Source: Cellulophaga sp. BC115SP
GTDB taxonomy: Bacteria > Bacteroidota > Bacteroidia > Cytophagales > Spirosomataceae
DNA length: 64,000 bases
Direction of reading: 5' to 3'
Assembly: GCF_009905545.1 (NCBI RefSeq)
Contig: NZ_JAAALB010000026.1
Location: 1 to 64,000, forward strand
Under the pieces are notes generated by a model. It did no database searches, was not told the DNA's origin, and saw only the letters and a list, made by a program, of their open reading frames with translations. Numbering within the stretch: the first letter of the stretch is position 1; every line of letters begins with the position of its first letter. Position numbers and translations under genes: made by a program. Of the stretch, positions 10,697 to 54,109 are shown in pieces.

Positions 10697-11605
10697 ATGG
10701 ACTTTGGAAAACTTTCAAAATTTGATGTAGAGCGTGTCGATTTTACTCTCTCTCAAGATAATGCCTTTAACTTGGAGGTATTGACTGGAACAAAATCAAC
10801 AAAACCTAAAATCTGGATAGGATGTCCCATTTGGGCAAATAAAGATTGGAATGGGAAAATATATCCGTTTAATGCCAAAAATCAAGATTACCTTTCTTTA
10901 TATGCCAAACAATTCAATACGATTGAGTTGAATGTGACACATTATCAAATCCCTAATGAAGAAACCATTAATCGCTGGTTAACCGAAACAGAAAATGGTT
11001 TTTTGTTTTGTCCAAAATTTCCTCAGGTTATCTCGCATGATAAACAACTCCAAAATGCACAAGAGCTGAGTCAGTTGTTTTGTAATAATATTTTGTCATT
11101 AGGAGATAAGCTCGGTTCTAGTTTTTTGCAATTAGCCCCACAGTTTGGTCCAAGACAACTACCTATTTTGGAGAAATATATTCAATCTATACCTCAGTCA
11201 TTAAAGTTTTCGGTCGAATTCAGAAACGAGGATTGGTTTAAAAATCCAACCATTTGGCAAAACACCCTACAAATGCTCAAATCCTATCAAGTTGGAACAG
11301 TAATAACCGACGTGGCGGGGCGACGAGATGTTTGTCATCAAAGTCTGAGTACCACTACTGCAATGATTCGTTGGGTTGGTAATGAACACCCTTCTGATTA
11401 TAAACGAATAGATGAATGGGTACAAAGAATTAAACAGTGGTTAGATAACGGCTTGGAAGAATTATACATTTTTGTACATATCTGCGAAAATACCATTGCA
11501 CCAGAAATGGCAAACTATTGGATTCAAGAACTAAATTTACATTGTAATTTGGAGATTAATCCACCAAAGTTTTTACCCAAAATAGAACAAATGAGCTTGT
11601 TTTAA
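10697..11605 (+). CDS. DUF72 (YecE-like) family protein
   Basis: This 302-residue cytoplasmic protein belongs to the DUF72 family, which has a TIM-barrel-like fold and no established biochemical function. Recognisable family blocks are IWIGCPIW (about 35-42; the usual form is GTSGW), LSLYAKQFNTIELNVTHYQIP (about 70-90), FLFCPKFPQVISHDK (about 105-119), the central FSVEFRNEDWF (about 178-188) and the C-terminal LYIFVHICENTIAPEMA (about 256-272), where most relatives read YVYFNN. The ATG at 10697 is chosen because the nearer upstream ATG at 10692 is out of frame. It appears monocistronic and is followed by the his leader region. Confidence 0.82.
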   Translation: MDFGKLSKFDVERVDFTLSQDNAFNLEVLTGTKSTKPKIWIGCPIWANKDWNGKIYPFNAKNQDYLSLYAKQFNTIELNVTHYQIPNEETINRWLTETENGFLFCPKFPQVISHDKQLQNAQELSQLFCNNILSLGDKLGSSFLQLAPQFGPRQLPILEKYIQSIPQSLKFSVEFRNEDWFKNPTIWQNTLQMLKSYQVGTVITDVAGRRDVCHQSLSTTTAMIRWVGNEHPSDYKRIDEWVQRIKQWLDNGLEELYIFVHICENTIAPEMANYWIQELNLHCNLEINPPKFLPKIEQMSLF

Positions 11606-11657: not shown

Positions 11658-11689
11658 CTTGGTGTTTGTATATTCTTCGTCTAACTTTG
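11658..11689 (+). promoter_or_regulatory. Candidate promoter of the his operon
   Basis: A -33-like CTTG (11658-11661) and an exact -7 box TAACTTTG (11682-11689) are 20 nt apart. The his leader ATG begins only 4 nt after the box, so the transcript would start at or next to that AUG and be essentially leaderless. Confidence 0.6.
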
Positions 11690-11693
11690 CGCC

Positions 11694-11738
11694 ATGAACA
11701 GCACAATTACACATCATCATCACCACTTGATTTCCTAA
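11694..11738 (+). CDS. hisL: his operon leader peptide (14 residues, five His)
   Basis: The open frame reads MNSTITHHHHHLIS and ends in TAA. Five consecutive His codons (CAT CAT CAT CAC CAC, 11712-11726) lie about 165 nt before hisH and are followed by a strong hairpin with a T-rich tail. This is the classic layout of ribosome-mediated his attenuation: when charged His-tRNA is short the ribosome stalls on the run and a terminator fails to form. The coding call rests on the His run and context, because the frame is too short for other evidence. Its AUG lies 4 nt after the -7 box, so translation may be leaderless. Confidence 0.88.
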   Translation: MNSTITHHHHHLIS

Positions 11739-11794
11739 TCGGGAATGGGCTGATGCGTGTTTGTGCCATTTTGAAGAATTGAATTATTCAAAAT
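11701..11794 (+). promoter_or_regulatory. his leader alternative RNA structures
   Basis: Seen by eye: bases 11701-11715 can pair with 11752-11766 (12 of 15 positions), enclosing the His codons as a 1:2 stem. Bases 11741-11751 (GGGAATGGGCT) can pair with 11803-11814 (AGCCTGATTCCT) with a one-base bulge or mismatch, forming an antiterminator that uses the 5' arm and loop of the terminator. An 8-bp hairpin ATTTTGAA / TTCAAAAT lies at 11768-11794. The leader stop codon is 2 nt before the antiterminator strand, so a ribosome that finishes the peptide would cover it. The pairings are inferred and were not energy-minimised. Confidence 0.65.
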
Positions 11795-11797
11795 ATA

Positions 11798-11840
11798 CAA
11801 AAAGCCTGATTCCTAACCGAGTCAGGCTTTTTGTATTTTG
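11798..11840 (+). terminator. his attenuator (intrinsic terminator in the leader)
   Basis: The perfect 12-bp stem CAAAAAGCCTGA (11798-11809) / TCAGGCTTTTTG (11822-11833) has a 12-nt loop and is followed by TATTTTG. It lies between the leader peptide and hisH, with no gene ending just upstream other than the leader. Confidence 0.88.
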
Positions 11841-11903: not shown

Positions 11904-12488
11904 ATGAAAACTGTAATTATTAAGTACAATGCTGGTAACGTTCAGAGTGTCATGTACGCTATGGACCGTATAGGAGCATCTTATCTTTGGACCGACGATG
12001 AGCAAGAAATTCGTACTGCTGATAAAGTGATTTTTCCTGGGGTGGGTGAGGCAAGTACAGCCATGAGTTATTTAAGAGAAAAAGGCTTGGATAAAGTAAT
12101 CCCTTCTTTGACACAACCAGTACTCGGAACTTGCGTAGGTATGCAATTGATGTGCCGCCATTCTGAAGAGAATAATACTACTTGTATGGGAATTTTTGAT
12201 TTAGATGTGAAGAGATTCGATTCAACCAATTTCAAAGTTCCTCATGTAGGTTGGAATAATATTTACAATCTCAAAACAGACTTGACACAAGGCTTACGAG
12301 AAAACAGCTATATGTATTTTGTGCATAGTTACTTTGCTGAACTAAGTCCTTATACCGTTGCTGAGTGTAATTATGTACAACCATTTTCAGCAATGCTTCA
12401 AAAAGATAACTTCTATGCAGCACAGTTTCATACCGAAATTAGTGGAAAAGAAGGTCAGTTGATTTTGGAAAACTTCCTAAAGCTGTAA
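11904..12488 (+). CDS. hisH: Imidazole glycerol phosphate synthase, glutaminase subunit HisH
   Basis: This 194-residue class I glutamine amidotransferase supplies ammonia to HisF for the fifth step of histidine synthesis (PRFAR to IGP plus AICAR). It has the nucleophile-elbow motif GTCVGMQLM (Cys near residue 80) and the C-terminal catalytic His/Glu in QFHTEISG near 174-176. The GxGEA oxyanion segment appears as FPGVGEAS near residue 48. It is the first structural gene after the his attenuator and is followed by hisA after 68 bp. Its length is typical. Confidence 0.95.
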   Translation: MKTVIIKYNAGNVQSVMYAMDRIGASYLWTDDEQEIRTADKVIFPGVGEASTAMSYLREKGLDKVIPSLTQPVLGTCVGMQLMCRHSEENNTTCMGIFDLDVKRFDSTNFKVPHVGWNNIYNLKTDLTQGLRENSYMYFVHSYFAELSPYTVAECNYVQPFSAMLQKDNFYAAQFHTEISGKEGQLILENFLKL

Positions 12489-12556: not shown

Positions 12557-13279
12557 ATGATTCAGATTATTCCAGCAATTGATATTATCGATGGCAAGTG
12601 CGTACGTCTTACTCAAGGAGATTATTCTCAGAAAAAAACTTATAATGAAAACCCTTTAGAGGTGGCCAAGTCATTTGAAGATGCAGGTATTCAGCGTTTA
12701 CATTTGGTTGACTTAGATGGTGCTAAACAAAAACGCATTATCAACCATAAAGTTCTTGAAACAATCGCCAACAAAACCAGCTTACATATCGATTTTGGAG
12801 GAGGAGTACAGTCAGATGAAATGATTCAATTGGCTTTTGATTATGGTGCAAAACAAGTAACAGGTGGTAGCGTAGCAGTAAAAAATCCTGAGTTGTTTGA
12901 AAAATGGTTGCAAGAATATGGTGGTGAAAAAATCATTTTGGGTGCTGATGCCAAAGATGAAAAAATTGCCATTTCTGGTTGGGAAGAGTCAACAGAAAAA
13001 TCGGTTTATGATTTTGTAGGCGAATATATTGCTAAAGGAGCAAAATATACGATTTCAACAGATGTTGCCAAAGATGGTTTATTACAAGGACCAAGTTTTG
13101 ATTTATACCAAAAACTTCAAGATCGTTTTGCAGACTTACATATCATTGCAAGTGGTGGGGTATCTGAATTGAAAGATATTATTCAGTTAAACGAAATGAA
13201 TGTCTTTGGTGTAATTGTAGGAAAAGCTATTTACGAAGGGCGTATTACGTTAAAGCAATTAGCCGATTTTCATAAATAG
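12557..13279 (+). CDS. hisA: ProFAR isomerase HisA
   Basis: This 240-residue TIM-barrel enzyme isomerises ProFAR to PRFAR in histidine synthesis. The first catalytic Asp is in [20 protein letters not shown] (about residues 4-23) and the second is in [18 protein letters not shown] (about 172-189). The phosphate-binding loops are FGGGVQSDE (about 78-86) and ASGGVSEL (about 198-205). It sits between hisH and hisF in the usual order, and its length is typical. Confidence 0.95.
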
Positions 13280-13314: not shown

Positions 13315-14070
13315 ATGCTAACGAAAAGAATTATTCCTTGTTTGGATATAAAAGACGGTAGAACTGTAAAAGGAACTAACTTCGTTAATCTCCGCGATGC
13401 TGGCGACCCTGTGGAATTGGGCGCAATTTACGCCGAACAAGGAGCTGACGAATTGGTATTTTTGGATATTACCGCAACTGTAGATAACCGTAAAACCTTG
13501 ATTGATTTGGTGCGTAATGTGGCACGTCATGTCAATATTCCCTTTACGGTAGGTGGAGGTATTTCTTCTATCGACGATGTTTCGGCTTTATTAAATGCAG
13601 GTGCCGATAAAGTTTCTATTAATTCCTCGGCCGTTCGTCGCCCTGAATTGATTAATGAGTTAGCATTACAGTTTGGATCTCAATGTATTATTGTTGCGAT
13701 AGATACTCGTTTTGTGGAGGGTGAACATATTGTGCATACGCATGGAGGACGTAAACCTACCGAATTGCGTACTATTGCCTGGGCAAAAGAAGTAGAAGAC
13801 CGTGGAGCAGGTGAAATTCTGTTGACTTCTATGGATACAGACGGTACAAAAGCTGGTTTTGCCAATGAGCTTACCGCTACTATTTCTGCAAATTCTTCTA
13901 TTCCAATTATTGCTTCTGGTGGTGCTGGAACCATGGATCATTTTACAGAAGTATTTACTACCGGAAAAGCTGATGCTGGATTAGCCGCAAGTATCTTTCA
14001 TTTTAAAGAAATAGATATTATCGAACTAAAACAGTATCTCCAACAACAAGGAATTTCAGTAAGATTATAA
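13315..14070 (+). CDS. hisF: Imidazole glycerol phosphate synthase, cyclase subunit HisF
   Basis: This 251-residue TIM-barrel cyclase partners HisH. It begins with [22 protein letters not shown] (the Asp of CLDIKDGR is catalytic, near residue 11) and has the second catalytic Asp in [12 protein letters not shown] (about 170-181). The phosphate loops are [11 protein letters not shown] (about 79-89) and [11 protein letters not shown] (about 201-211). It follows hisA after 35 bp in the same operon. Confidence 0.95.
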
Positions 14071-14163: not shown

Positions 14164-14763
14164 ATGCAATTAGATTTTGAAAAACAAGGAGGCTTGATTC
14201 CTGCCGTTATTCAAGATGCCAAATCCGACAAGGTATTGATGTTGGGATATATGAATCAAGAGGCGTTGGAAAAAACAGAGAAAGAAGGTGTGGTTACATT
14301 CTTCAGTCGTTCAAAACAACGTCTTTGGACTAAAGGAGAGACTTCAGATAATTTCTTACATGTAGTCGAAATCTTAAAAGACTGTGATGAAGATACACTT
14401 TTGATTAAAGTTAATCCAGCCGGACCTACTTGTCATACAGGTGCTGATACTTGTTGGAATGAGAAAAATGCGCCAGGACAGGCAGGTTGGTTGAACTATT
14501 TAAAGGCTGTTATTCGTGAGCGCAAGAATAACCCTTCAGAAAAATCATATACAGCAAGTTTATTTGAAAAAGGAACCAATAAAATCGCTCAAAAAGTAGG
14601 AGAGGAGGCTGTAGAGCTAGTGATTGAGGCTATGGACAACAACAATGATTTGTTTAAGGGCGAAGCAGCAGACCTATTGTTTCACTATTTGGTATTGTTA
14701 GAGCAAAGAGGTATTGATTTTGACGAAATCATTGACGTACTTCGTACAAGACATAGCAAGTAG
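14164..14763 (+). CDS. hisIE: Bifunctional PR-AMP cyclohydrolase / PR-ATP pyrophosphatase HisIE
   Basis: This 199-residue fusion catalyses steps 2 and 3 of histidine synthesis. The HisI half (about 1-110) shows LMLGYMNQEALEKT, FFSRSKQRLWTKGETS and the metal-binding DCDEDTLLIKVNPAGPTCHTGADTCW (Asp and Cys ligands). The HisE half (about 115-199) shows SYTASLFEKGTNKIAQKVGEEAVELVIEAM and ADLLFHYLVLL, typical of the MazG-like pyrophosphatase fold. It is the last his gene here. hisG, hisD, hisC and hisB are not in the window, so they must be elsewhere. Confidence 0.94.
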   Translation: MQLDFEKQGGLIPAVIQDAKSDKVLMLGYMNQEALEKTEKEGVVTFFSRSKQRLWTKGETSDNFLHVVEILKDCDEDTLLIKVNPAGPTCHTGADTCWNEKNAPGQAGWLNYLKAVIRERKNNPSEKSYTASLFEKGTNKIAQKVGEEAVELVIEAMDNNNDLFKGEAADLLFHYLVLLEQRGIDFDEIIDVLRTRHSK

Positions 14764-53917: not shown

Positions 53918-53953
53918 CAAAAAAAGACCTACTGGTTGAACAGTAGGTCTTTT
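53918..53953 (-). terminator. trp attenuator (intrinsic terminator in the leader)
   Basis: On the minus strand AAAAGACCTACTG pairs perfectly with CAGTAGGTCTTTT (13 bp, loop TTCAAC) and is followed by TTTGTGTCC, so the stem runs into a T run of at least six. It lies between the leader peptide and trpE. Confidence 0.9.
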
Positions 53954-54079: not shown

Positions 54080-54109
54080 CAAACTTAATTCGAATTTTTG
54101 TTTTTCAAA
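54080..54109 (-). promoter_or_regulatory. trp operon promoter
   Basis: On the minus strand, TTTG (54106-54109), 18 nt, then TAAGTTTG (54080-54087): a close match to the Bacteroidota -33/-7 consensus. The start site is expected near 54075, about 26 nt before trpL. The rest of the gap to 54229 is A/T tracts with no gene seen. Confidence 0.75.

Follow-up and report, generated by a model that had tools for sequence, protein, structure and literature searches.

A probable ribosome-mediated attenuator with a predicted leaderless leader peptide ahead of hisHAF-IE in a Flectobacillus-like member of the Bacteroidota

The hisHAF-IE genes in the window, i.e. the whole stretch of 64,000 nucleotides analysed here (contig C126 of a 7.08-Mb assembly), are very probably controlled by a ribosome-mediated transcription attenuator, with translation of the leader peptide starting on a leaderless mRNA. 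The geometry of promoter and ORF, the conservation, three pairings in the leaders designated type A and a switch in folding models were found in silico. The HisH protein is 98% identical to the HisH of Flectobacillus longus and of Flectobacillus sp. BAB-3569, and thus the organism is called Flectobacillus-like (Bacteroidota). The features in the window are listed in Table 1.

According to the sequence, the leader ORF consists of the codons ATG AAC AGC ACA ATT ACA CAT CAT CAT CAC CAC TTG ATT TCC TAA at 11694-11738, and the stop codon is located at 11736-11738. A leader of 14 residues with five consecutive His codons upstream of hisH had been described in the earlier note, and it was confirmed by this reading. 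The terminator had been described there as a perfect 12-bp hairpin. It is actually longer; the arms 11795-11812 and 11819-11836 form 18 pairs, including one G-U, around a 6-nt loop. The fold of the leader region has a value of -58.7, against a mean of -30.55 for 200 dinucleotide shuffles (z -7.53). The window was scanned for ATG-initiated ORFs of 9-35 codons with three identical residues consecutively (18 residue types), followed by a perfect GC-containing hairpin and a T-run at most 200 bases away. Only two matches were obtained, the His leader and a Trp leader. No Rfam family matched at the gathering cut-off in the whole window. The best sub-threshold match was Thr_leader (32 vs 55 bits) at 11759-11836, which includes the terminator, and no His_leader row was present among the sub-threshold matches listed.

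Table 1. Positions of the attenuator elements, the his genes and the Trp leader in the window
Feature	Position	Strand	Basis or remark
Sigma-A -7 box TAACTTTG	11682-11689	+	Bacteroidota consensus TAnnTTTG; read from sequence
Leader ORF MNSTITHHHHHLIS, 14 residues	11694-11738	+	Predicted +1 at A of ATG (leaderless); start site inferred from box spacing
Five regulatory His codons (CAT CAT CAT CAC CAC)	11712-11726	+	Sequence; used as simulated stall positions
Segment 1, 5' strand of 1:2 protector stem, within leader ORF	11701-11719	+	Folds; swap test
Segment 2, 3' strand of 1:2 protector stem	11751-11766	+	Folds
Antiterminator 5' strand, first base 3 nt past leader stop codon	11741-11751	+	Folds; swap test
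Antiterminator 3' strand, overlapping terminator 5' arm and loop	11803-11814	+	Folds
AT-rich spacer hairpin	11768-11794	+	Folds only
Intrinsic terminator with a U-rich 3' arm	11795-11836	+	Folds; both-side changes
hisH	11904-12488	+	TIGR01855, above cut-off
hisA	12557-13279	+	TIGR00007, above cut-off
hisF	13315-14070	+	TIGR00735, above cut-off
hisIE (bifunctional)	14164-14763	+	NF002747, above cut-off
Trp leader MTTNFKNTAWWWQLTKLG before trpE	54049-53993	-	Window scan
Trp leader box	54080-54087	-	30 nt before ATG; predicted 26-nt 5' UTR
Trp leader terminator	53924-53951	-	Hairpin before trpE

The box TAACTTTG ends 4 nt ahead of the leader ATG. In Flavobacterium psychrophilum, the sigma-A box TAnnTTTG is located at -12 to -5 from the mapped transcription start (PMC9723704). 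Thus +1 would be the A of the ATG, and the His leader is probably leaderless, as judged from the box spacing. A leader ORF beginning at the predicted transcription start was absent from the earlier note.

The same arrangement was searched for at 110 hisH loci, which comprise 30 of the matches of a first search (52 of 59 genomes matched) and, from a second search with 157 matches, the best 80. The box followed by an ORF of 10-30 codons with at least three His was found at 59 of the 110 loci when gaps of 0-12 nt were allowed; 58 of these 59 loci have a gap of 4 nt, and one has a gap of 5 nt. The two sets of loci overlap in organisms, and of the 61 leaders with the 4-nt gap that were read, 50 are distinct. 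In 20 rounds of dinucleotide shuffles, the combination of box, short gap and His-rich ORF was found in none, and chance is therefore excluded. Among the remaining 51 loci, some are cut off by a contig end. The leader of L065 lies beyond the scanned 700 bases and was recovered by the covariance model described below, and leaders with two His are present at L025, L027 and L073. No leader was seen at some hisH loci, including all those of Chitinophaga and Paludibacter. L210 and L213 have his leaders with a variant box, TAnnTTTA, 4 nt before the ATG. A hairpin with a T-run follows 59 of 61 hisH leaders.

Alternatively, the same attenuator may not be leaderless: transcription would start further upstream, and the TAnnTTTG 4 nt before the ATG would not be a used -7 box. 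Leaderless mRNAs are uncommon in those Bacteroidota in which they have been measured: they make up 5.5% in F. psychrophilum (PMC9723704), and about 3.7% of 5' UTRs are under 10 nt in B. thetaiotaomicron (literature figure). The Trp leader of the same window also shows a different spacing (Table 1). However, the 4-nt gap of the hisH loci is maintained despite diverged peptide and flanks. In this genome, TAnnTTTG-N4-ATG occurs at 174 sites, vs 136 for the pattern read backwards. Twenty of the listed sites (L149-L168) were selected by eye. Of these, 13 head ORFs of at least 118 codons, some of which run off the end of the fetched sequence without a stop, and no further amino-acid leader was found among the 20. 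This suggests a set of leaderless protein genes in this genome. An upstream start is thus unlikely, and the leaderless start is preferred.

A covariance model, R1, was built from 42 leaders and run against 200 genomes of the family. By a count of the listing, 103 of the 200 contain a full-length match at E <= 1.1e-13, and about 20 of these supplied model sequences and so match by construction. The matches were counted irrespective of a following hisH, and in G036 a strong match lies on a different contig from its hisH. A tally of 179 of 200 was set aside because it includes terminator-only fragments. The leader was read in Flectobacillus, Arcicella, Siphonobacter, Spirosoma, Larkinella, Fibrisoma and Dyadobacter, and also in Rudanella, Rhabdobacter, Telluribacter, Arsenicibacter, Fibrella and Arundinibacter. 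Twenty weaker R1 hits were fetched. They comprise six Tyr-run leaders, six more divergent his leaders, one Trp leader before trpE and one Cys-rich ORF, and six without a leader (L206, L212, L214, L215, L218 and L219).

The pairings in type A leaders were examined by a swap test, in which the duplex energies of cognate and swapped segments were compared over 18 type A lineages of our own choice. The test is alignment-free, and it was used because, as read from the columns, MAFFT does not bring the antiterminators of the two type A subgroups into register. For the 1:2 stem (the whole ORF against the 45 nt after the stop), none of 20000 permutations was as good as the cognate combination. For the 2:3 pairing, 1 of 20000 was as good, and for the terminator (3:4), 0 of 20000. 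The leader ORF against the terminator 5' arm, which served as negative control, showed no cognate preference (11545/20000). The 2:3 test was not significant within the GTTCTG subgroup of type A (3135/20000) and gave 43/20000 within the other subgroup. The 2:3 signal therefore consists of the difference between the subgroups and the signal of the other subgroup, and part of it is explained by shared ancestry; relatedness inflates both the conservation and the swap tests. In the terminator, changes on both sides were found at 4 of 10 consensus pairs (27 type A sequences). Using the type A alignment, RNAalifold drew the terminator and nothing else. The 1:2, 2:3 and 3:4 pairings thus each pass the cognate-vs-swapped test over the 18 lineages, which supports the attenuator reading.

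The switch was then simulated with the RNA transcribed only to the terminator loop and with a ribosome assumed to block the positions from 18 nt upstream to 12 nt downstream of the A-site codon's first base. In the window sequence, the antiterminator captures the core of the terminator 5' arm to 0.87-0.88 when the ribosome is stalled at any His codon, and to 0.00 when it is at the stop codon or when there is none. The mean capture for 32 distinct type A leaders is 0.79 when stalled, 0.32 at the stop and 0.45 without a ribosome, and the difference between stalled and stop exceeds 0.2 in 28 of the 32. Over the 18 lineages this difference is 0.46, vs 0.04 (sd 0.02) with shuffled spacers. The mean of 0.45 without a ribosome indicates that the untranslated state is not uniformly terminating in type A. 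In the equilibrium fold of the complete RNA of the window sequence, the terminator forms with or without the stalled ribosome. Thus, the antitermination decision would have to be kinetic and made during transcription.

According to the mechanism proposed here, RNA polymerase would start at position 11694, the first base of the leader ORF, and the bare 5' AUG could be loaded by a ribosome as soon as it has emerged. When His-tRNA is ample, the ribosome would arrive at the stop codon (11736-11738) and cover the antiterminator strand 3 nt further on. Then the terminator 11795-11836 would form, and transcription would stop before hisH. When His-tRNA is scarce, the ribosome would stall on the five His codons and the 1:2 stem would be broken. 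Then 11741-11751 would pair with 11803-11814, the terminator 5' arm would be sequestered, and the polymerase would enter hisHAF-IE. An untranslated leader would fold into the 1:2 stem and leave the terminator free in this sequence, which is not general in the relatives. In this scheme we infer the start site, the leaderless initiation, the kinetics and the response to histidine.

The hairpin might instead merely terminate the transcript of the upstream DUF72 gene or a small His-peptide transcript, with hisH having its own promoter. The DUF72 gene (PF01904) ends at 11605 on the same strand, as this explanation would have it. However, the type A hairpin is coupled to the leader through the 2:3 and 1:2 pairing, and it is kept at loci where no adjoining DUF72 gene was found. 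In several relatives the hairpin ends a few bases from the hisH start. This explanation is highly improbable, and the hairpin is regarded as a part of the attenuator.

Type B (Dyadobacter-like) comprises 18 distinct leaders from Dyadobacter, Telluribacter, Rhabdobacter, Arundinibacter and kin. The His codons, the 4-nt gap and the downstream terminator are kept in these leaders. The swap tests, which low divergence weakens in type B, were not significant for 2:3 (2419/5000 and 945/20000) or for 1:2 (12424/20000). RNAalifold draws a 1:2-like stem in type B, and the switch is seen in 8 of the 18 leaders. Between the type B leader and the terminator, a nearly invariant linker, TGTAATAAGGTTGAATACA with its flanks, is present (L013, L018, L023, L024, L026, L027, L046, L047, L054, L059, L060, L063, L064, L066, L068, L072, L076 and L079), and the linker of L018 differs by one base. 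The linker was considered as a general conserved regulatory element. This was rejected, as exact copies of its 19-mer core are found in 5 of 59 relatives, once per genome and always just upstream of hisH.

Another regulator, such as an RNA-binding protein or a T-box-like tRNA, may act on the leader, at least in the type B relatives. There the antiterminator is unsupported, yet the near-invariant linker with its hisH-only 19-mer core is kept. On the other hand, the type B leaders retain the His codons and the 4-nt gap, and the window holds no Rfam family at the cut-off. Rfam includes a T-box model. We consider such a regulator very unlikely, and attenuation by a translating ribosome is the preferred reading.

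Leaders for other amino acids were also found. For trpE, 30 loci were scanned out of 56 genomes that gave a match, and at 29 of the 30 a leader with adjacent Trp codons (WW) lies before the gene. Four of these 29 leaders have the box 4 nt before the ATG; the number is 5 with the longer ORF of L251, and 7 when the variant TAnnTTTA is also accepted for L265 and L270. Therefore, a leaderless start is no automatic by-product of the promoters of this family. The Trp leader of L217 gave a sub-threshold match to Trp_leader (35.9 vs 41 bits). The Tyr-run leaders of L200-L205 (e.g. MNQTINTYRAYYYYYALPV) precede an aminotransferase gene. In this genome, the Tyr leader MNQSINTYRAYYYYALQA is located at G000:C185:98089 (-) (L311) with a box gap of 5. 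Its downstream gene encodes a class I/II aminotransferase (PF00155; best NCBIfam matches below cut-off) and is followed by a prephenate dehydrogenase gene (PF02153, PF20463), i.e. an aminotransferase-tyrA pair, which was seen in this genome only. Tyr-rich leaders were found in 13 of the 30 loci scanned (L220-L232), the 30 being drawn from 58 matching genomes, and the box lies 4-5 nt before the start codon in 10 of the 13 when the upstream ATG of L230 is counted. In the Tyr leaders, the stop codon lies right beside a strand that is complementary to the 5' arm of the terminator. A similar plan serves the Tyr-run leaders and some Trp leaders.

A Cys-rich ORF beginning with MKTLCTYCLYSC was observed at L216 (G032:C156, about 1440-1560, -), with the box 4 nt before the ATG and a terminator. 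The ORF and terminator are located directly 5' of a tRNA-Cys gene; the tRNA query matched 1 of 59 genomes, that of L216 itself, twice.

In this genome the his pathway is split over three places. Contig C56 holds hisG (PF01634), hisD (PF00815) and an aminotransferase gene (PF00155) together, and the last is read as hisC from its position. The hisB gene is a 401-codon frame on contig C1 (L113, G000:C1:163977), away from hisGDC and hisHAF-IE. The earlier note had pointed out that hisG, hisD, hisC and hisB are not upstream of hisH, and these contigs are where they were found. It had further suggested that the two halves of the pathway could be tuned separately, or that a second leader exists at the other locus. 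The second leader is absent here, since no short ORF with at least three His was detected in the 700 bases upstream of hisG or of hisB. Separate tuning fits, as only hisHAF-IE shows an attenuator among the three his loci, and it is predicted from the sequence that the parts of the his pathway can be regulated differently.

Where both hisG and hisH were listed for a relative, the two genes are far apart or on separate contigs, save in three genomes (G046, G047 and G054) in which hisG is within 5 kb of hisH. The hisG loci of the Spirosoma-like genus of G007 were scanned (30 loci; 35 of 36 genomes had hisG), and a conserved Arg/His ORF of the MISQRATHSPFRHRRHHRGC type was found 5' of hisG in 24 of the 30 loci. 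The box is located 4-5 nt ahead of its ATG, and this ORF is also predicted to be leaderless (L139, L282-L310; also L129 and L134). A terminator-like hairpin follows 2 of the 24 Arg/His ORFs, vs 59 of 61 hisH leaders in the same test. At the loci read, a second promoter-like box was observed further downstream.

The his leader of E. coli and other gammaproteobacteria shares the short leader, the tandem His codons, the mutually exclusive stems and the intrinsic terminator (PMC9413887). The leader described here differs in the Bacteroidota sigma-A box, the predicted leaderless start, the location before hisHAF-IE only and the lack of an Rfam match at the cut-off. The Firmicutes His-leader attenuators also have a row of His codons, a terminator and an antiterminator (PMC2965389, PMC9413887); they contain three to five His codons (PMC9413887) and belong to another phylum, and the descriptions consulted make no mention of a leaderless start. 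The leaderless trpL of Sinorhizobium meliloti is an attenuator leader of 14 codons, and its RNA begins with the ATG, as is predicted here (PMC7298713); it differs in having Trp instead of His and in its phylum. The mycobacterial polycysteine leaderless short ORFs, likened here by a title cited in PMC13236596, share the run of a single residue and are named there a cysteine-responsive attenuator; the residue is Cys and the phylum is another one. Structured 5' elements at hisG and pheA of Flavobacteriaceae share the phylum, the suggested leader-peptide attenuation and the lack of an Rfam hit (PMC9723704). The his element there sits at hisG, not hisH, and it is likened by its description, apart from its sequence and leader start. 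The Bacteroid-trp RNA (RF01692) is a Bacteroidetes motif whose name suggests trp control (PMC2864571). The window gave no gathering-level hit to RF01692.

Candidate attenuators in Bacteroidetes/Chlorobi were reportedly mentioned by Vitreschak et al. in 2004. No description of a leaderless hisH attenuator was recognised in a literature search of open-licence papers in partial text. The hisH attenuator would work like the classical his attenuator, and leaderless attenuator leaders are already known in S. meliloti and mycobacteria.

Flavobacteria lack Shine-Dalgarno sequences, and where leaderless messages have been measured they are few (PMC9723704). We tentatively put forward a broader possibility for Spirosomaceae-type Bacteroidota, although we lean against it in its full extent. 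His sensing may be built on leaderless initiation, with the AUG fixed at +1 and immediately engaged by the ribosome; this may be a distinct attenuator class of this group, reused for Tyr and, in some genera, also for Trp, and in the Dyadobacter type the base-paired antiterminator may be replaced by the near-invariant linker with a partner of its own. The R1 model uncovered Tyr- and Trp-run leaders, and one part of a split his pathway would have its own control. The His leader with its predicted +1 start (58 of 59 loci) beside the leadered Trp leader forms a natural pair in one genome. This pair could show how leaderless RNA is loaded with ribosomes, and whether ribosomes in this phylum keep up with the transcribing polymerase.
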